Part shown: positions 9,652 to 41,626 of the stretch, in pieces
Layout: each line of letters begins with the position of its first letter
Position numbering within the stretch: position 1 is the stretch's first letter
Assembly: GCA_900321605.1 (NCBI GenBank)
Contig: ONWR01000015.1
Coordinates: 1 to 41,626 of the forward strand
DNA length: 41,626 nucleotides
Origin: an uncultured Bacteroidales bacterium
GTDB lineage: Bacteria > Bacteroidota > Bacteroidia > Bacteroidales > Paludibacteraceae
Reading direction: 5' to 3'
Position numbers and translations under genes: made by a program
The notes under the pieces: model-generated
Told to the model about the DNA's origin: nothing
Databases searched by the model: none
The model's input: the letters and a program-made list of their open reading frames with translations, nothing else

Positions 9652-11175
9652 TTATTTAGCGACGTTGACGGCGCGGACCTCACGGATGACGGTCACTTTG
9701 ATCTGACCCGGGTAGGTCATCTCGTCCTGAATACGTTTCGCGAGATCGAAAGAGAGGAGTTCGGTATCCTTATCGGAGATCTTATCGGCTCCGACGATCA
9801 CACGCAGTTCACGTCCTGCCTGCAGGGCATAGGTCTTCACTACGCCCGGGAAGGACATAGCAAGGTTCTCCAGATCGTTGAGACGTTTCACATACGACTC
9901 CACGATCTCACGACGGGCACCCGGACGGGCACCGGAGATCGCATCGCAGGCTTGAACGATAGGAGCGATGATGGTGGTCATCTCGCACTCATCGTGGTGA
10001 GCACCTACCGCATTGCAGATATCGGGTTTCTCTCCGTATTTCTCACAGAGTTTCATACCAAGCTCTGCGTGCGGCAGTTCGACATCATCATCGGCTACTT
10101 TACCGATATCGTGAAGAAGTCCGGCACGTTTAGCAGCCTTGACGTTCAGACCTAACTCACCCGCCATGGCGGCACAGAGGTTAGCGGTCTCACGGCTGTG
10201 TTGGAGCAAGTTCTGTCCATAGGAAGAACGGTATTTCATCTTACCGACGAGGCGCACCAACTCCGGATGCAGACCATGGATACCAAGGTCAATAGTCGTA
10301 CGTTTACCTACTTCGACGATCTCATCCTCCACTTGTTTGGTTACTTTCGCAACAACCTCTTCGATACGCGCGGGGTGAATACGTCCGTCTTGCACGAGTT
10401 GGTGCAAAGCGAGACGCGCTATCTCACGGCGTACGGGATCGAAGGCAGAGAGGGTGATTGCTTCGGGTGTATCGTCCACTACGATCTCGACGCCGGTAGC
10501 GGCTTCGAGTGCGCGGATGTTACGTCCTTCACGACCGATGATACGTCCTTTGACTTCGTCATTCTCAATGTGGAAGACAGAGACGGTACTCTCAGCAGCC
10601 GTTTCCGAAGCCACACGCTGGATCGTCTGGATGATGATTTTCTTGGCTTCTTTGTTTGCCTCCAGACGGGCATTGTCCATGATCTCATTGATATAGGACA
10701 TAGCCGAAGTCTTCGCTTCATCCTTGAGGGCTTCAACAAGCTGCTTTTTCGCTTCCTCGGCAGACATTCCGGAGAGTTGCTCCAATTGTTTCTCTGCCTG
10801 TTGGTGCATCTTGTCCACCTCTTGCTGCTTGTAGTCGAGGGCTTGTTGGCGTTGCTCTACTGCTTGCGTTTTTTGATTTACTTCGTTGAGGGATCGTTGG
10901 ATCTCACCCTGACGCTGATTGAGCTGCTGCTCGCGTTGGTTCAAACGCTGTTCATGCTGTTGAATACGTTTGTCCTGCTCACGTACTGTATTGTCGTGCT
11001 CCAGTTTCAGGGCGATAAATTTCTCTTTTGCCTCAACAATCTTGTTTTTCTTGATCACCTCAGCTTCCTCTGCCGCTTTCTTGAGTAAGTTTGCAGCTGC
11101 GGTACGCGAGATGAGATAGTAGATACCGGCTCCGAGAAGGAGACCTGCTACTCCAAATAAAATTGCTGTCATCAT
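9652..11175 (-). CDS. rny: ribonuclease Y
   Basis: A membrane-anchored endoribonuclease that starts mRNA decay. The 507-aa protein has an N-terminal membrane segment ([19 protein letters not shown]). A long Q/E/K-rich coiled coil follows (about 35-150). The KH domain has [17 protein letters not shown]. The HD domain carries [12 protein letters not shown] and the flanking GAHHDECE. The C-terminal part is conserved ([20 protein letters not shown]). Length and order match the family (about 510-520 aa). It is preceded by zapA at 35 bp and a ZapB-like gene, a gene order I regard as common in Bacteroidota. A second Met follows the first; ATG at 11175 is used. It ends at the terminator shared with trmN6. 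Confidence 0.97.
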
Positions 11176-11200
11176 TGATTTATCGTGTTTGTTTTGTTAG

Positions 11201-11228
11201 TTTTCAGAATTCAGATTTCAGATTTCAG
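11201..11228. repeat. four 7-bp units overlapping the zapA stop
   Basis: TTTTCAG, AATTCAG, ATTTCAG and ATTTCAG in a row. The zapA stop codon (11213-11211) lies inside the array, so the last residues of ZapA (KSEI) are repeat-encoded. Confidence 0.9.
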
Positions 11229-11507
11229 ACAATTGAGAATCTGTTCATTCAATGCTTTTAGTTCTTTCTCCACGGGAACAAGTGATTTCTCCCGTGCGTC
11301 AGACTGTAGGGCGACTGCCACTTCGAGGGCAGTATACATCCATAATTGTTCTGCGGAGGCGTTTGGTCGCAATTTAAGGTAATATTGATAACGCCTATTG
11401 AGCAAGTCCGCAGCCTTGCGATAAATGGGTTCTTGATCACGCTCTACCTCCAGCCCCACGGTGTGGGCATCGAGATGCAAGTTAATATGTTGCTTATCAA
11501 CAATCAT
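11211..11507 (-). CDS. zapA: cell division protein ZapA
   Basis: A 98-aa protein fitting ZapA, which binds and bundles FtsZ at midcell. The N-terminal HINLHLDAHTVGLEV and the following RDQEPIYRKAADLLNRRYQ match the small ZapA globular domain. The C-terminal part (ALEVAVALQSDAREK...VEKELKALNEQIL) is a helical coiled coil. It lies between a ZapB-like coiled-coil gene (91 bp upstream) and rny. Its C-terminus is formed by the heptamer array over its stop codon. Confidence 0.85.
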   Translation of the reverse strand: MIVDKQHINLHLDAHTVGLEVERDQEPIYRKAADLLNRRYQYYLKLRPNASAEQLWMYTALEVAVALQSDAREKSLVPVEKELKALNEQILNCLKSEI

Positions 11508-11529
11508 TTTTATGTACGAAGGACAAATG

Positions 11530-11597
11530 TACGATGTACGATTTATTGACGATTTATTTTAATTGACGATTTACGCGGTCAATTTTTAAGTGACGAT
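11530..11597. repeat. TTGACGATT-type degenerate repeats
   Basis: Units of the type GACGATTTATT and TTGACGATTTAC fill the gap between the ZapB-like gene and zapA. They resemble those at 8757-8821. Confidence 0.65.
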
Positions 11598-11873
11598 TTA
11601 TTTTTTGAGGGCGTTGATGGCGCGATCGAGTTGTGCTATGAGGGCATTGAGACGCTTGAGTGCTTCCTCGTTGGTCTCTGCCGAAGTGAGAGCGTTAGCA
11701 GTGGCTAAACGTCGGTTCTTTTGCTGCAGATCCAGCAGGTCAGCGTGCGTACGGATGAGTTCCTGACGCTGCCGATCGACATCTTCACGCAGTTGAACAT
11801 TCTCCTTCTGCAACGCTTGGTAACGCTGCAGAAGGAGTTGCACATTTTGCGATAGATCGTCGAGAGCCTGCAT
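11598..11873 (-). CDS. small coiled-coil protein, ZapB-like
   Basis: A 91-aa protein that is almost entirely predicted coiled coil. It has leucines and isoleucines at heptad spacing (VQLLLQRYQALQKENVQLRE; LKRLNALIAQLDRAINALKK), is rich in Q, E and R, and has no cysteine. It lies immediately upstream of zapA, in the position where Bacteroidota carry a cell-division coiled-coil protein. Because coiled coils resemble each other, the ZapB assignment rests mainly on location. No clear TAnnTTTG promoter was found upstream. Confidence 0.7.
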   Translation of the reverse strand: MQALDDLSQNVQLLLQRYQALQKENVQLREDVDRQRQELIRTHADLLDLQQKNRRLATANALTSAETNEEALKRLNALIAQLDRAINALKK

Positions 11874-11875
11874 GA

Positions 11876-11916
11876 TTTACAATTCACAATTTATAATTCA
11901 CAATTCACAAAGGGCT
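11876..11916. repeat. AATTCAC-type short repeats
   Basis: Units such as AATTCAC, AATTTAT and AATTCAC fill the start of the gap (11874-12015) between the ZapB-like gene and the DUF3078 gene. No gene is visible in the rest of that 142-bp gap. Confidence 0.7.
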
Positions 11917-12015
11917 TTGGGAGTCGAGTACGATTTATCAAGATACGTACGGTTCTCAAAATTTGGTACAAAACTCTTTAGGAAGCTTTGTTCATTATAA
12001 TTTGATAATTGTTCA

Positions 12016-33850: not shown

Positions 33851-34891
33851 TTAGCAACTCTCAAATTGCCGCAAGAACCGGACGTCGTTCTCCGAGAACA
33901 GACGAAGGTCTTTCACTCGGTATTTGAGGTTCGTGATACGCTCTACGCCCATACCAAAAGCATAGCCGCTATACTCCTTGCTGTCAATACCGCAAGCCTC
34001 CAACACGTTCGGATCAACCATGCCGCAGCCTAAGATCTCAACCCACCCTGTGCCTTTACAGAACGAGCAACCTTTTCCGCCGCAGATATTACAACTGATA
34101 TCCATCTCCGCACTCGGCTCCGTGAACGGGAAATAACTCGGACGCAGACGGATCTTCGTCTCCGAACCGAACATCTCCTTGCTGAAATACAGCAGTGCCT
34201 CGCGCAAGTCCGCAAAACTAACATGCTTGTCGATATACAGACCTTCTACTTGGTGGAAGAAACAATGCGCACGAGCGGAGATTGCCTCGTTACGATATAC
34301 TCTACCCGGGCATAACACACGAATCGGCGGCTTTTGGCTCGTCATCACACGCGTCTGAACCGAACTCGTATGCGAACGAAGCAGCACATCCGTCGGCTTC
34401 TGAACACCCTTCTCTTTCTCAATAAAGAACGTGTCCTGCATATCGCGTGCAGGATGCTCCGGTGCAAAATTCAGCATTCCGTACACGTGCTTGTCGTCCT
34501 CTACCTCCGGTCCCTGAGCGATCGTAAAACCGATGCGGGAGAAGATATCCTCTATCTCCTCGCGAACCATAGACAGCGGATGACGCGTACCCAAAGCAAT
34601 CGGATCCGGCGTACGAGTCAAATCCAACTTGTCCGCCTCTGCCTGCTTGGCTTCAAACTGCTCTTTCAACTCGTTGATACGGCTCTCTGCCTGCTGACGA
34701 AGCTGGTTCAACATCTGTCCCAACTCCCTTTTCTGGTCTCCCGGAACGGTACGAAACTCATTGAACAGCGCGGTGATCTCGCCTTTCTTACTCAGATACT
34801 TAATACGCAGGGACTCCAACTCCTCAGCACTCGTTGCCTTCATCTCGCCCACCTGCGCAAGTAATGTTTGTATATTCTCTTTTAATGCCAT
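33851..34891 (-). CDS. pheS: phenylalanine--tRNA ligase alpha subunit
   Basis: The catalytic alpha chain of the (alpha-beta)2 enzyme that charges tRNA-Phe. The 346-aa protein has an N-terminal tRNA-binding coiled coil (about 1-90) and the class II core, with motif 2 in RVYRNEAISARAHCFFHQVEG and motif 3 in GYAFGMGVERI. The cysteine-rich insert ISCNICGGKGCSFCKGTGW is found in many bacterial PheS proteins. The beta-subunit gene pheT is not next to it, as is common in Bacteroidota. It has its own promoter at 34919-34949. Confidence 0.97.
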   Translation of the reverse strand: MALKENIQTLLAQVGEMKATSAEELESLRIKYLSKKGEITALFNEFRTVPGDQKRELGQMLNQLRQQAESRINELKEQFEAKQAEADKLDLTRTPDPIALGTRHPLSMVREEIEDIFSRIGFTIAQGPEVEDDKHVYGMLNFAPEHPARDMQDTFFIEKEKGVQKPTDVLLRSHTSSVQTRVMTSQKPPIRVLCPGRVYRNEAISARAHCFFHQVEGLYIDKHVSFADLREALLYFSKEMFGSETKIRLRPSYFPFTEPSAEMDISCNICGGKGCSFCKGTGWVEILGCGMVDPNVLEACGIDSKEYSGYAFGMGVERITNLKYRVKDLRLFSENDVRFLRQFESC

Positions 34892-35490: not shown

Positions 35491-35572
35491 GCTCTGCCCG
35501 AGACCGGATACAGAGCGGATCGAGACCGGAAAGGAGGTATCCTAGACCATGCTAATTGTCATACCACTATAA
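35491..35572 (+). promoter_or_regulatory. leader with hairpin, SD-like site and 7-codon open frame
   Basis: GCTCTG (35491-35496) can pair with CAGAGC (35511-35516). CGAGACCGGA occurs twice (35499-35508 and 35521-35530). AAGGAGGT (35531-35538) is a perfect Shine-Dalgarno-like site 10 nt before an ATG at 35549 that opens MLIVIPL and stops at 35572. Strong SD sites are rare in Bacteroidota. Confidence 0.45.
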
Positions 35573-35600
35573 CAATCACATATACAACGTTTTACAGCCA

Positions 35601-36479
35601 ATGCCAAAGCATCTAAAAACAACCATATTTTTAACTTTAACAAGCACCCTTTTCCAAGAGGTGCCTTCTCCTGCGGTTTCCAAGGTTCACGCCCGTGGTG
35701 TGCGCTATTTATACCCTATTGACGGCATCAATTATTACTGCGGAATGATGAACTCCCACAAGCAAGGTCAAAAATACCGCAAACACATCATCGTCCGTCG
35801 TGTTCCCCGTTTTGGCGGCTTGCACCAACTCTATACGTACCATTTTCCCAAGACGTGGTCTGCAGCCTGTGTAGCTAACCGCGAACTCATCAAAACCGCT
35901 CAGAAACTCGCTCACGCCCTCGAACACGACTACTCCCCGGAAGGCATCGAATGGAGACTCCGTTTCTTCCATCATTATTTCCATGTCGTCAAAGGTGGCG
36001 CCAAACCGGAACCCGGTCTCAAGCCCTATACCCGTTTCTATCAATACGTCTACGTCTGCATCTACCGCGACCTCAAATCCGCCGTTACCGCCGCCCAACA
36101 AGCCGCCGCTCAAGAAGCCTCCCTCTCTACCGCTCAAGAAACCTCCCTCGCCGCCCAACAAGCCTCCCTCGCCGAGCAACCCACCGCTGCCTTCCTCGCC
36201 CAAAATGCCTCCGCCGAGCAGTCTTTGTTGAGTGCTCCGTGCGTCAGCGCGGAGTCTCTTACCATTGCTCACCCCCACACCGTGCTGTCCACTTCTCGGC
36301 GCTGTCTCGCCGAGCCTTCCCTTGTCGAGCCTTCCCTCGCCCAACCATCCCTCGCCGAGCCTTCCCTCCCGACTCCCGAGGACATCTCCTTTGTGCCCAT
36401 TAACCCTCGTCCTCTCCGTTCTCGCCGCACGTACCCCCTCAACGCCCTCATCCATCGTCAAATCGTCAATATAGATTAG
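35601..36479 (+). CDS. protein of unknown function with low-complexity C-terminal repeats
   Basis: A 292-aa protein from ATG 35601 (MPKHLKTTIFLTLTSTLFQE); an in-frame TTG at 35556 would add 15 residues. Residues 1-165 look like a genuine compact domain, basic and rich in Tyr and His (RYLYPIDGINYYCGMMNSHK, RRVPRFGGLHQLYTYHFPKTW, LRFFHHYFHVVKGG). Residues about 170-265 are low complexity: Ala/Gln/Ser/Leu blocks (AAQQASLAEQ) and 5-residue EPSLA repeats coded by 15-bp units. The tail is basic (PRPLRSRRTYP). G+C content is high and synonymous codons are C-ending, unlike the AT-rich genes that follow. There is no signal peptide, and I do not recognise a family. It has its own promoter and an odd leader. 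Confidence 0.7.
   Translation: MPKHLKTTIFLTLTSTLFQEVPSPAVSKVHARGVRYLYPIDGINYYCGMMNSHKQGQKYRKHIIVRRVPRFGGLHQLYTYHFPKTWSAACVANRELIKTAQKLAHALEHDYSPEGIEWRLRFFHHYFHVVKGGAKPEPGLKPYTRFYQYVYVCIYRDLKSAVTAAQQAAAQEASLSTAQETSLAAQQASLAEQPTAAFLAQNASAEQSLLSAPCVSAESLTIAHPHTVLSTSRRCLAEPSLVEPSLAQPSLAEPSLPTPEDISFVPINPRPLRSRRTYPLNALIHRQIVNID
36312..36371. repeat. four 15-bp coding repeats
   Basis: Units of the type GAGCCTTCCCTCGCC at 36312, 36327, 36342 and 36357, encoding EPSLV, EPSLA, QPSLA and EPSLP. A looser set of Ala/Gln/Ser repeats precedes them at about 36080-36180. Confidence 0.9.
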
Positions 36480-36505
36480 AAAACGTCATTTTTTTGACCA
36501 AAGAT

Positions 36506-36536
36506 TTGCATATATCAAAAATTATTTGTAATTTTG
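36506..36536 (+). promoter_or_regulatory. Bacteroidota-type promoter for the DUF4160-DUF2442 pair
   Basis: TTG (36506-36508), 20 bp, TAATTTTG (36529-36536), 28 bp before the start at 36565. Confidence 0.87.
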
Positions 36537-36564
36537 CACCGCAAAATGAAAGGGAATAGCAATT

Positions 36565-36822
36565 ATGCCTGAAATAAGTCGTTTTTATGGAATAGTTATA
36601 ACAATGTATAATTCGGAGCACAACCCTCCGCACTTTCACATTCGTTATAATGACTATCGTGCTACTATGGATATTAACACCGGCGAAATAAATGGTAACT
36701 TACCCCGCCGCGTCTTGAATCTTGTTTATGAATGGTACGACGAGCATAAAAGCGAGTTGAAAGAGAATTGGCTTCGCATGGAAAAAGGCGAAGAGATTAT
36801 CAATATTAAACCACTTGACTGA
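36565..36822 (+). CDS. DUF4160 domain protein
   Basis: An 85-aa cytoplasmic protein with the DUF4160 signature: MPEISRFYGIVITMYNSEHN, then PPHFHIRYNDYRATMDI and the C-terminal EWYDEHKSELKENWLRM. DUF4160 genes are very often followed by DUF2442 genes, as here (one base between the stop TGA and the next ATG). The pair has been suggested to act as a toxin-antitoxin-like or accessory module, but its activity is not settled. It has its own promoter. Confidence 0.92.
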   Translation: MPEISRFYGIVITMYNSEHNPPHFHIRYNDYRATMDINTGEINGNLPRRVLNLVYEWYDEHKSELKENWLRMEKGEEIINIKPLD

Positions 36823-36823
36823 T

Positions 36824-37069
36824 ATGAATCTGATTTGGATAAATAGCGCCAAGTATTTAGGCGATTACCGCTTGTCTCTGTCATTTTCTAATGGCGAGCA
36901 ACGTGTGTTTGATGCAAAGGAGTTTATCGCGTCTCATCCTTTGTTTGCCCCCCTTCAAGACAAGAAATTATTCAGTCAGTTTCAGTTAGACGGATGGACT
37001 ATTTCGTGGCAAAATGGCACATTGGATATAGCGCCGGAATATCTCTATGAGGTAGGCACAGCCGCTTAG
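36824..37069 (+). CDS. DUF2442 domain protein
   Basis: An 81-aa protein from ATG 36824, one base after the DUF4160 stop; an in-frame TTG at 36815 would add three residues and is less likely. The DUF2442 pattern is visible: YRLSLSFSNGEQRVFDAKEF, then FQLDGWTISWQNGTLDIAPEYLYE. It is co-transcribed with DUF4160. In related pairs this member is considered the likely antitoxin or partner; that is context only. Confidence 0.9.
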   Translation: MNLIWINSAKYLGDYRLSLSFSNGEQRVFDAKEFIASHPLFAPLQDKKLFSQFQLDGWTISWQNGTLDIAPEYLYEVGTAA

Positions 37070-37408
37070 CCCCACAGTCCCGCATGACATAAATCCGAGC
37101 TGCTGAACTCAACAGCGCAAAAATGAGAACATAAGAAATAATTAGCGCGAAGCGTCGCGCAATAATAAAGCATTCAGCTAAGTTGAAATCGAACCCGAAA
37201 GGGTGAGAACTTGGGCCTTCGAAAACTGGACACTTTCGAACCTATTACTAAACCAAGAACAAGGCTTTTATGCTCACGCAATGACGTGAGCCTTGTTCGG
37301 TAGATATTTGGTTTAGTAAGGTAGTCCAGAAATCCTCGAAGACCCAGATTGAAGCTAACAAGCCTCACGTTTTTCGTGTATATATGAATAACCAAAATAT
37401 TTACTATT
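37070..37408. other. 339-bp intergenic region before the P-loop gene
   Basis: Contains a small hairpin (GCGCGA 37145-37150 with TCGCGC 37155-37160) and the long nested structure at 37211-37347, followed by CACG-TTTTT-CGTG (37366-37378). I see no protein-coding frame of note and no clear TAnnTTTG promoter. Confidence 0.7.
37211..37347. ncRNA. candidate structured RNA or small inverted-repeat element
   Basis: Four nested helices pair in order. Arm pairs: 37211-37222 with 37336-37347 (TTGGGCCTTCGA against TCGAAGACCCAG, with a G-T pair and a C-A mismatch); CTGGAC 37226-37231 with 37324-37329; TTACTAAACCAA 37245-37256 with 37308-37319, a perfect 12 bp; and GAACAAGGC 37257-37265 with 37290-37298. 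The tip is GCTCACG 37272-37278 with 37285-37291 around loop CAATGA. The whole forms one imperfect hairpin of 137 nt. It resembles no RNA class I can name. It may be a regulatory RNA of the downstream operon, a retron-like or MITE-like element, or a recombination site. Strand of action is undetermined. Confidence 0.55.
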
Positions 37409-37867
37409 ATGAATAAATACTTTATTTGTATTGATGCAGATGAAGATAGTGGCAAATCTGCTACACTTCTATGCCTCATTAGAATGTTAGAGGCACAAAA
37501 CGTCGACAAATTAGAGGCTTTCCCACATAACGAGGAGGAAGCGAAAGAGTATCAAGCTGACCGAACAGTGGCTTTCCAAATGAACAATCATTTGGTACTC
37601 ATTCAATCGCAAGGTGATCCGGGTACGCATGTCTTCGCCGACACAAAGGCTTATTTGGAGAAGAACGAGCCACGTATTATTATTTGTGCCGCCCGTCCAA
37701 ACGGAGAACCGATGAAACAGGCAAGAGAAAATGCAGCGGGCTACACCTTCATCCATTTTCAGAACTATAGGTCTGAACAACCAAACAATTATCTTCTTAA
37801 CAATCAACTCAACCGCCTTTCTGCGGAAAGTTTGTTAAGTGCAATTCATGAACTTTTAAATATTTGA
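37409..37867 (+). CDS. small P-loop protein of unknown function
   Basis: A 152-aa cytoplasmic protein. The amino end MNKYFICIDADEDSGKSATL places a beta strand before ADEDSGKS, which fits the Walker A pattern [AG]xxxxGK[ST] with Ala in the first position. HLVLIQSQGDPG could be the Walker B strand, and PRIIICAARPNG the next one. The size fits a minimal P-loop NTPase or kinase-like fold, but no specific family is recognised. It follows the nested hairpin element and lies 4 bp before the long LRR-GHKL frame, so the two are almost certainly one operon. Confidence 0.65.
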   Translation: MNKYFICIDADEDSGKSATLLCLIRMLEAQNVDKLEAFPHNEEEAKEYQADRTVAFQMNNHLVLIQSQGDPGTHVFADTKAYLEKNEPRIIICAARPNGEPMKQARENAAGYTFIHFQNYRSEQPNNYLLNNQLNRLSAESLLSAIHELLNI

Positions 37868-37871
37868 TATT

Positions 37872-40800
37872 ATGAAACGTCTTTTATCACTCCTTTTTGT
37901 CTGCCTTTGTTTTTCTATATTTGCAAATGCAGTTAACAACATTAAAGACACTACTATCATCTATTGTGATACTATTCATTACGAAATGAATGGTAGTCAA
38001 ACAAGATACTATCGCTATGAAATTAAGTATCAGGTGAATTTATTAAATCACAATGCAAAGATTTCACGAATAACAGCTTTAGGACAAGATAACAATATTT
38101 CGTGGTTGGAGTACTTGACAGAGAATAATTATATTGACTCCAGTGCGATATACGTTGAGGTTCCTGAGACATTAAGCATCAACAATGAATTTTATATCGT
38201 AGATTCCATATTAAATTTCGAATATTTTTCCCCTACATACGATATATACAGAGGAATAAAAATTCCGAAGACCATAAAATTCATAGCTTGTTCTTTGCAA
38301 CCATTCACTATAATGAAACATTTAGAATGGTTTGAAGTGGATGCCGAAAATCCGTACTATAGTTCAGTGTCTGGATGCTTATGTGACAAAACTGGTAAAG
38401 TGTTAATTTGTTATCCAGTATGTCAAAGAGAAGATATTACTGTGCCTGAAGGATTTGAAGAAGTGAGAAGATATGCCTTTGCGCCTGCGACCAGTTATGT
38501 GAATAATCCAAGCACGGTAAAAACAATACGTTTAGCGTCCACTATCAAAAAAATGGATTCTCCTGCAGATTTTGCTTGTCCAAATTTGGAATCGGTTTAT
38601 ATTCCAACTTTGTCCCAGTGGTATAACATCGATTTTAATAGCCCTTATGTACTGCAACACAATTTTGATTTGTATGCAGATGGAAATTTGGTAAGTAGCA
38701 TTACTCTTCCCGACTCTGTGCAACGCGTCAAATACGGGCAGTTCATGGGCTGTAATTTAGATACTGTTATCATCCCAGAGGGTATAACCAATATTGAAGA
38801 ACATGCGTTTCACGGATCTACAATAAAATGTGTATATATACCGACAACTATTGATTCTATAAAATATGCGGCTTTTTCAGCAACCAATAGTTTGAAATAT
38901 GTGCATACGAAAGATATTTACAAATGGAGTCAGATATTTTTTGAGTTTATAACATCCCAACCATTATTATATGCTCAAAATCTTTATTTGAATGGAGAGT
39001 TAGTAACAAATCTTGAGATAAACAACAACATCTCCAAGTATGCCTTCTGTGGTGATACTTCTCTGGTCTCTTTGACTTTAGATTCCAACGTTAAGAATAT
39101 AGAAAGTCAAGCTTTTTATCTTTGCAAGAATCTTAAAAATGTAACATTGAATGATAGTTTGTTAAGTATAGGAAAAATGGCTTTTGAATCATGTTCTATG
39201 ACATCAATAGTTATCCCCGAAAATGTAGATACAATAGGCGATAGCTTTATTTCACATAACCCTCTAAAGGATATTACCTTCAAATCCTTACGACCTTTTC
39301 GATATAGTAGAAGCACCCTTGCTTATACAGATAGTTTAAAAGATATTTATATCCCTTGCGGCACGTATGATATTTATTCTAATATTATTGGGTATAAGGA
39401 TCTTTTGCAAGAACCGACATTTGACTTTTCATATCAAGTAGATATTAACGATAGTGAACTTGGATCAATCGCTTTGCTTCATACTCCTGATTGTTCGGAT
39501 TCCACTCTTACAATAGAAGTTACTCCATATTCATGGGCTCACTTTGTACAATGGAGCGATGGAAATACAGACAATCCTCGCTCTATTAAAGTGGACCAAG
39601 ATACAACATTAAGTGCTGAATTGGAATATAATAATGTTACTCTTACTCTTTCGTGCGATGACGAAAAAGGAACTGTTGTCGGTTCTGGGACATACCCCTA
39701 TAATACTGAAGTTACTATTTCAGCAACACCTAAACATGGTTACAAGTTTTATCTTTGGAATGGGGATTCTTACTCAAAAGAACAAACATACACATTTACT
39801 ATTGTAAATGATATGGAAATGGTTGCCCATTTTACACCAGAAACTTATACAGCAACTATTCAATCCGCGAACGAAGAAATGGGATATGCATATGGATCAA
39901 CAACAGCGGAATATTTATCTACAATTGAGATTTCAGCGTACCCGAATTATGGCTACCATTTTGCCCAATGGAGCGATGAGAACAAAGAAAATCCGCGTCA
40001 ATTTGTTGTAGAAAATGATACGACATTGATTGCGATATTTGAGCCTGATACATTTGCTGTATATGACTACTACGAAGAAGATGGTTACACCATAGGAGGA
40101 GGTTCATATCCTTACATGGCGGAAATATCGGTTACTGCTATTCCAAATAAAGGCTACGATTTTTACAGTTGGGATGATGGTATTTATGAAACGACAAGGA
40201 CAATCACCATTACTGGAGAAATGTATTTGTATCCTATTTTTGGAAAACATCTCTATCAAGTCAATATTTACTCTAATGATTATAATATGGGTAGTGTTAA
40301 TTATAGCGGAGAAAACCAATTCTATTATCAGGACGTGATACGTTTGGAAGCTTATCCGTCTTATGAGCGATATGAGTTTGAGCGTTGGAGTGACGGAAAC
40401 ACAGAAAACCCCAGAACAATCATAATTGATAGAGATATAGAACTTGAACTTGAGAGTGTAAAGCATAGAATATCATCTTTTCTTAGACCAAGCCAGTTAA
40501 ATGAGATTATTTGGAAAACTGGCTTGTTCCTCAAAGAAGCCATCAATAATGTATATGAACATGCCTATGGCAATAACTGCACGAAATATGTCGGGTATTA
40601 TATACGGCATCGTACTGGGCTGACAGACAATACATTGTCGCCAACATCGAGGAAGGATTTGGAAAAATCTTTCAACTCAGAAATGAGGGACGTGAAATGT
40701 TTTGTCAAGAACTTCCCCATGACTACAACCAATTTTTTGGAGATTTATGTAATTGATGCAGGAATTGGATTAACCAAGCACTTTTCTCTTAAGAGAAATT

Positions 40801-41626
40801 ATGTTAAGATGAGCTTTAGGGAAGCCTGGAGAGAAACTATTGGACTAGGCCAAAGGGGTATTGAAAAAGAAAAATACACGCATTTTGGAGGCCTTTATAC
40901 ACTTGGAAAATTATTAGATAAAGAGTTCCTCTTAGCAAGAGATTACGATTATTGGATAGGTGATGTCATTCCTGTTGTAGCAACAAATGGTTCATATGTT
41001 GCAGCATGTTCTAAAGGAGAAGACCATTACGTACAAGGTCTTTCATTGATGAGTCGTTTGGCAATTCTTCAACCAATGGATTATAAAGATTGGGTGCTGT
41101 CACCAGATTGCGGTGTTTGCTTCATTGAGGCGATGAAAGAAGAACGAAGTATCTACGAAAAGTATTTCCACTGTAGTTACAGCAAAATGCCTTTTTGTTT
41201 GTCATATATAAAGGACAATAGGTATGATGTGTCTTTTATGGATAATGTAAAGTATTTGAAACAGAAAGAAGGCGTAAAGTTTTGTTTTTTCCTTCCAAGC
41301 GAACATGTTTCTAAAAATGGTATTTACGACTACATTACAGAAATCAAATCGCTAGCGGGAATTAGCAATGACAGCAAGACCGTCATTATAGCAGATATTC
41401 CCGTCAACGAATGTGGACTCTATCAACAGGCTTTGAAAGATGCCTACTTTAAGAGCGGATTTACAAAGAGAGTTGAGAGGATTATCATGATTTCACAGCG
41501 TTTATCTGTCTATGTTCTTATTAAACAAGGTGAAACCTATGTGGACTCATACAGCGAAACTATGAAGTACATCCAGAACAAACCAAAGGATTTCTCTCCA
41601 CATTTATCACTTCTTCATGCAGTGGA
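37872..41626 (+). CDS. signal peptide-LRR-InlB-repeat protein fused in frame to a GHKL ATPase-like domain (runs off the window)
   Basis: Reading from ATG 37872 I find 1251 codons with no stop to the window edge. Residues 1-20 form a signal peptide (LLSLLFVCLCFSIFANA). Residues about 110-510 contain BspA-type leucine-rich repeats (VIIPEGITNIEEHAF; LTLDSNVKNIESQAF; SIVIPENVDTIG), closing with IYIPCGTYDIY. Residues 521-863 are five InlB-like repeats (each with GY.F..W.DG...NPR). From 865 the character changes to a GHKL ATPase: an N-box KEAINNVYEHAYG (E889, N893), a G1 box VIDAGIGL (D962 to G966) and a G2-like THFGGLYTLGKLLD (about 1003-1016). There is no membrane segment between the parts. Similar LRR-InlB proteins normally end in a T9SS tail. 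Samples of 60 bases are mostly 25-30% G+C. The gene sits 4 bp after the P-loop gene. Confidence 0.8.
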   Translation, partial: MKRLLSLLFVCLCFSIFANAVNNIKDTTIIYCDTIHYEMNGSQTRYYRYEIKYQVNLLNHNAKISRITALGQDNNISWLEYLTENNYIDSSAIYVEVPETLSINNEFYIVDSILNFEYFSPTYDIYRGIKIPKTIKFIACSLQPFTIMKHLEWFEVDAENPYYSSVSGCLCDKTGKVLICYPVCQREDITVPEGFEEVRRYAFAPATSYVNNPSTVKTIRLASTIKKMDSPADFACPNLESVYIPTLSQWYNIDFNSPYVLQHNFDLYADGNLVSSITLPDSVQRVKYGQFMGCNLDTVIIPEGITNIEEHAFHGSTIKCVYIPTTIDSIKYAAFSATNSLKYVHTKDIYKWSQIFFEFITSQPLLYAQNLYLNGELVTNLEINNNISKYAFCGDTSLVSLTLDSNVKNIESQAFYLCKNLKNVTLNDSLLSIGKMAFESCSMTSIVIPENVDTIGDSFISHNPLKDITFKSLRPFRYSRSTLAYTDSLKDIYIPCGTYDIYSNIIGYKDLLQEPTFDFSYQVDINDSELGSIALLHTPDCSDSTLTIEVTPYSWAHFVQWSDGNTDNPRSIKVDQDTTLSAELEYNNVTLTLSCDDEKGTVVGSGTYPYNTEVTISATPKHGYKFYLWNGDSYSKEQTYTFTIVNDMEMVAHFTPETYTATIQSANEEMGYAYGSTTAEYLSTIEISAYPNYGYHFAQWSDENKENPRQFVVENDTTLIAIFEPDTFAVYDYYEEDGYTIGGGSYPYMAEISVTAIPNKGYDFYSWDDGIYETTRTITITGEMYLYPIFGKHLYQVNIYSNDYNMGSVNYSGENQFYYQDVIRLEAYPSYERYEFERWSDGNTENPRTIIIDRDIELELESVKHRISSFLRPSQLNEIIWKTGLFLKEAINNVYEHAYGNNCTKYVGYYIRHRTGLTDNTLSPTSRKDLEKSFNSEMRDVKCFVKNFPMTTTNFLEIYVIDAGIGLTKHFSLKRNYVKMSFREAWRETIGLGQRGIEKEKYTHFGGLYTLGKLLDKEFLLARDYDYWIGDVIPVVATNGSYVAACSKGEDHYVQGLSLMSRLAILQPMDYKDWVLSPDCGVCFIEAMKEERSIYEKYFHCSYSKMPFCLSYIKDNRYDVSFMDNVKYLKQKEGVKFCFFLPSEHVSKNGIYDYITEIKSLAGISNDSKTVIIADIPVNECGLYQQALKDAYFKSGFTKRVERIIMISQRLSVYVLIKQGETYVDSYSETMKYIQNKPKDFSPHLSLLHAV

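Follow-up and report, generated by a model that had tools for sequence, protein, structure and literature searches.

The reading frame at 37872-41624 on the forward strand, in which a surface protein appears to run into a GHKL-type ATPase, is probably a chimeric join of two unrelated genes at about 40422-40445, with a false assembly join or a chimeric library molecule as its likeliest origin. The frame thus probably does not encode a novel type of protein, even though it looks like a surface protein with an ATPase tail. The window, i.e. the whole stretch of DNA that was analysed, comprises 41,626 bases and is one entire contig of a 64-contig, 2.32-Mb draft assembly rated 94.9% complete and 0.9% contaminated. 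Two genes are truncated within a shared junction zone, the hybrid frame runs to the contig end, and the remainder of the ATPase gene finds no match in the assembly. Taken together, the loss of sequence from two genes at a single point, a look-alike junction, the contig end and the missing remainder form the pattern of a chimeric contig.

Results and Discussion

In agreement with the original prediction, a single uninterrupted frame of 1251 codons leads from LRRs through five InlB-type repeats into GHKL motifs and is free of stops up to the contig end. It opens with a signal-peptide-like start, MKRLLSLLFVCLCFSIFANA (37872-37931, judged by eye), which is followed by BspA-type LRRs. Pfam counts three LRR stretches, the best of which (LRR_5, residues 386-506, 39027-39389) reaches E=1.4e-39. 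The five InlB-type repeats span 39426-40445 and were located with a profile built on 28 repeats taken from relatives; Flg_new_2, a divergent InlB repeat, is additionally matched by Pfam before residue 864 (E=5.4e-31). Around residue 864 and beyond it the only Pfam match is HATPase_c_2, which is sub-threshold. The downstream half (40446-41624), recognised by profile and motifs as a piece from within a giant GHKL-type protein that is cut by the contig end, contains an N-box, KEAINNVYEHAYG (40533-40571), a DAGIG motif (40755-40769) and a G2-like HFGGLY motif (40881-40898), all on the forward strand. The repeats and the three motifs had thus been read correctly from the start, and the motifs are conserved in two relatives, referred to here by their genomes G302 and G1136. 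No membrane segment between the halves was seen by eye. The frame is clean over 400 codons of the ATPase half with its motifs intact, which counts against a chimera.

The junction was placed with two profiles, neither of which contained window sequence: the InlB profile and an ATPase-family profile built from G302, G1136 and a third relative at locus L043. The InlB profile yielded copies at residues 519-583, 580-630, 643-723, 735-789 and 789-858, the fifth ending at profile position 78 of 82 and hence being cut short. The match to the ATPase-family profile begins at residue 851, corresponding to position 181 of 1497. Residues 851-858 (IIDRDIEL, 24 bases, 40422-40445 on the forward strand) therefore fit both profiles, closing an InlB repeat and at the same time opening the homology to the ATPase family. 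An abrupt switch had been predicted at about 40460; the switch exists, but it is positioned slightly earlier, 1.2 kb from the contig end. Around the join the window reads IIDRDIELELESVKHR, while the end of an InlB repeat in a relative (L011) reads VVDRDIELQALF and the GHKL gene at L043 reads IDNEIERELEEIKHR, so that the pattern I-D-x-D/E-I-E-x-x-L is common to both parents in the same codon phase. Because the join falls within this look-alike stretch and in the same phase, the frame stays open without selection. The 24 junction bases would presumably be identical or nearly so in both parents, with the proviso that peptide letters alike in both do not prove alike DNA. A search with the junction DNA gave no second match in the genome itself, though sharing over only about 24 bases would have escaped that search. 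No repeats of at least 18 bases that could drive inversion were found at the junction.

The LRR/InlB half was matched in 82 of the 101 genomes searched, its own included, with no close relative among them, the five best-scoring others being 36-41% identical. Nineteen LRR/InlB loci (L004-L022) were inspected, the longest frame ending in a stop in 14 and running off the locus in five. All 14 stop-bearing relatives continue into a C-terminal tail as judged by eye, short and conserved in 12 (for example ILRGDKTYTLTGQEVR) and longer in two, and this tail is missing from the window. A regular expression for the tail flagged only 4 of the 19 loci. When tails of five relatives were compared with sorting models, one passed: the longer tail of L010 exceeded the cut-off of the T9SS type A model TIGR04183 (24.6 vs 23 bits), the longer tail of L018 stayed below it (14.2 vs 23), and the short tails of L008, L011 and L067 matched none of the models. 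For most of the LRR relatives the label 'sorting tail' is accordingly given by analogy. As our argument rests on the presence of a tail in the relatives and not on its name, the odds of the explanations weighed below are kept. The LRR half would represent an exported surface protein, ordinary for the genus, that is cut before its C-terminal tail.

The ATPase half has a very different distribution. It found no match in 100 relatives, of which 60 belong to its own genus, nor in any of 177 other genomes of the genus. Besides the own genome, a search of 393 genomes of the order returned G302 only, and a two-row ATPase profile run against 395 genomes of the class returned a strong match in G1136 and a weak, partial one in G569 (E=6e-4), the genome draws for these searches overlapping. 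A scan of genome contigs added one locus, L043, from a yak abomasum Bacteroidales MAG, and the whole G302 protein compared with 395 genomes of the phylum added only a remote match in G581 (residues 900-1086). By tblastn, neither the tail nor the G302 protein had a relative in phages and plasmids, and none was confirmed in viral contigs.

Within this family the window holds an interior piece. Its ATPase half corresponds to residues 170-587 only of the G302 protein (1568 aa, counted from the chosen start codon), and the N-terminus it lacks is present in G302, in G1136 (1590 aa) and at L043, where it is 36% identical to that of G302 over residues 9-206. The starts of these three proteins and of the distant G581 protein differ from that of the window frame and have no signal peptide by eye. 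The motifs NVYEHAY, DAG-G and FGGL are invariant across the window, G302 and G1136, and in the ATPase half the N-box is followed by the G1 and then the G2 motif. Since HATPase_c_2 remains below its cut-off of 27.4 bits (14.3 bits, E=0.041, for the window and 16.2 bits for G1136), the name GHKL rests on these motifs and on family conservation. A PDB profile search gave one chance-level match and no GHKL protein, and an AlphaFold single-sequence model of the tail alone was unusable (pLDDT 36). The tail meets the PADLOC model PDC-M65A weakly (E=0.0018, 15.2 bits). The N-box region is also covered by phrog_3364, a phage-protein profile of unknown function (E=2.3e-4 for the tail, 5.3e-7 for the G302 protein), which may reflect the shared ATPase motif only. 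The labelling of the tail as a lincosamide nucleotidyltransferase was discarded as a chance match (12.5 bits vs a cut-off of 540).

The G581 protein (1584 aa) carries N-box-like, DNGIG, PRPP-loop and CPxC motifs. The PRPP-loop pattern occurs in G302 as well and was not found in G1136, so that 'PRTase-like' fails as a name for all three giants; Pribosyltran exceeds its cut-off in G581 only. 'STAS-like' as a name for the N-terminus of the giant proteins was unsupported, and an RE_endonuc match in the G302 protein lay below its own cut-off. At L043:284-940 the GHKL gene is cut after ...WKAGLFLK, and a hairpin-like GCCGTA...TACGGC and then a T run lie directly behind (by eye). Elsewhere in the genome of L043 the giant protein has no good match, the second hit being at E=0.088.

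When the own genome was searched with the whole G302 protein, only the window piece was recovered, and the assembly yielded no match to the rest of the gene; nor was the parent that gave rise to the ATPase piece found. In the L043 genome this query does pick up the N-terminus, at 36% identity, hence the own-genome search was able to see such a relative. The PADLOC profile PDC-M60C gave nothing better than E=0.03 in the own genome. It matched 12 of 14 control genomes, presumably via ordinary nucleosidases or receivers, and is therefore not a specific marker. Composition was tried as a separator of the two halves, and GC3, codon usage and dinucleotide distance all failed to distinguish them. GC3 amounts to 0.29 and 0.36 in the two halves, the median of 111 own ORFs being 0.58, and some other LRR genes of the genome are AT-rich as well (GC3 down to 0.34).

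Along the contig, GC content drops from about 51% in a pheS-like gene (33851-34891, by eye) to about 31-43% over 36500-41626, a stretch that resembles an acquired island and covers a DUF4160 and DUF2442 gene pair, a small P-loop-like ORF and the hybrid frame. The ORF at 35556-36479 has 54% GC, tandem 15-nt repeats and no Pfam match. The P-loop-like ORF (152 aa, 37409-37867, forward strand, P-loop by eye) ends shortly before the LRR gene, which starts 4 bases downstream. It has no Pfam or NCBIfam match, meets a thymidylate-kinase phrog at E=0.016 and has weak relatives in 5 of 248 other genomes. In one of these (G018, locus L067) an 813-aa LRR gene with a short tail lies directly behind the small gene, the small proteins being 26% identical, so that one relative has both genes in window order with the LRR gene ending normally. 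The other four have no LRR gene directly behind; at L071 another large repeat protein follows that is not an LRR protein by eye. With direct adjacency in one of five relatives only, the P-loop gene was rejected as a system partner of the LRR gene.

Origin of the join

We infer that the join arose in assembly and not in the cell. The upstream parent would be a secreted LRR/InlB surface gene cut before its C-terminal tail, and the downstream piece an interior part of a giant GHKL-type, probably cytoplasmic sensor protein of a defence-like locus, minus about 170 N-terminal and the last 980 or so residues. The two would be joined where they read alike in equal codon phase, so that the frame would automatically stay open, either by a false join during assembly or through a chimeric library molecule near the contig end.

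The main alternative, which we regard as possible but distinctly less probable, is that the join is present in the DNA of the cell, where recent illegitimate recombination at a short shared sequence would have combined the LRR gene with an acquired GHKL copy into a non-functional hybrid. The anatomy of the junction would be the same as that of an artefact, as a real recombination would leave identical letters, and both halves are AT-rich relative to the genome, as acquired DNA should be. Further, the gene at L043 is also cut, 24 residues past the equivalent of window residue 864, and the GHKL family thus does occur in broken form. Against recombination in the cell stand the absence of the remaining 2.9 kb or so of the gene from an assembly of the stated completeness, the position of the hybrid at a contig end and the lack of a longer junction repeat. 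The first two of these points, the contig end and the missing remainder, let us lean towards an artefact over a recent fusion.

Three readings had originally been offered, and two of them, a recent fusion replacing the tail and an assembly chimera, fit the sequence. The third, a genuinely new architecture in which an exported LRR/InlB adhesin carries a working GHKL domain, is very improbable: a single open frame and intact GHKL motifs speak for it, but the ATPase half is absent from the 177 other genomes of the genus that were searched, the four family relatives with a readable start begin otherwise, the fifth InlB repeat is cut short, the two halves do not occur together in any examined relative, each half is truncated where the other begins, and an exported GHKL domain would be without ATP. 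We give equally little credence to a real, expressed surface adhesin that has captured the GHKL module of a defence-type sensor, one conceivable route being gene-diversifying recombination in a repeat-rich locus; the sole support for a functional secreted GHKL protein is the open frame.

The giant GHKL-type proteins and their neighbours

The GHKL parent of the tail is probably a cytoplasmic, sensor-like giant. Three giant genes have a receiver-type gene behind them. In case of G302 (L044:4221-10162), this neighbour has a nucleosidase effector part (PNP_UDP_1, 5.7e-21) and matches PDC-M60C (E=1.8e-33) and the PADLOC model 'Effector, PN-superfamily' (E=4.5e-14), its receiver match remaining below the cut-off (23.2 vs 30.2 bits). 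The neighbour in G1136 (L075:2259-8490) has a receiver-like start by eye and no Pfam receiver match; it meets the PADLOC models 'Effector, Peptidase' (E=9.9e-70) and 'SAVED_peptidaseM48' (4.7e-17), the latter a name associated with CBASS. At the G581 locus (L052:2711-9127), where no effector name was given, the receiver exceeds its Pfam cut-off, the only one of the three to do so. The giants of G302 and G1136 themselves matched no PADLOC model at the limits used, and that of G581 meets TmtA at E=0.025 only. The G581 locus is flanked by transposase-like genes at L052:1-816 and 10299-12001, a mutator-type transposase and an IstA/IstB-like pair by eye.

One type of sensor combined with differing effectors suggests a role in defence. 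The giant GHKL and receiver-type genes may form a candidate modular defence family, and their arrangement side by side would fit a phosphorelay-like, abortive system. GHKL domains are known in defence proteins, e.g. in the Shedu protein VcSduA, which has a GHKL ATPase at its N-terminus (PMC12137116), and PRTase, HATPase and REC are among the domain abbreviations in a legend of PMC13092281. No paper on the giant GHKL family was recognised in a search of the open-access literature, which is not proof of absence.

In conclusion, a probably spurious 'secreted ATPase adhesin' can be kept out of the record, and the parent of its tail, a rare giant of the GHKL type with receiver-type neighbours that vary in their effector part from genome to genome, is the more interesting protein. 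The analysis also provides a usable test: a chimera should be suspected where, close to the end of a contig, independent profiles of two families converge on the same few residues and each parent is cut off there.

Comparison with known systems

Likeness to the PADLOC candidate system PDC-M60, an unpublished system as described in PMC11811056, lies in the gene next to the G302 giant (PDC-M60C), and no partner gene occurs within the window. With the giant proteins of G302 and G1136, window residues 851-1251 align at 42% and 33% identity, respectively, and have the N-box, G1 and G2-like motifs in common, whereas in those giants the matched stretch is internal, preceded by an N-terminus of about 170-200 aa and followed by a CPxC motif and a long C-terminus. 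BspA-like LRR/divergent InlB-repeat surface proteins of Bacteroidales (PF13306, PF18998) resemble the window protein in the signal-like start (by eye), the LRR_5 repeats and the five InlB repeats; they differ in their C-terminal tail, in place of which the frame of the window enters an unrelated gene.
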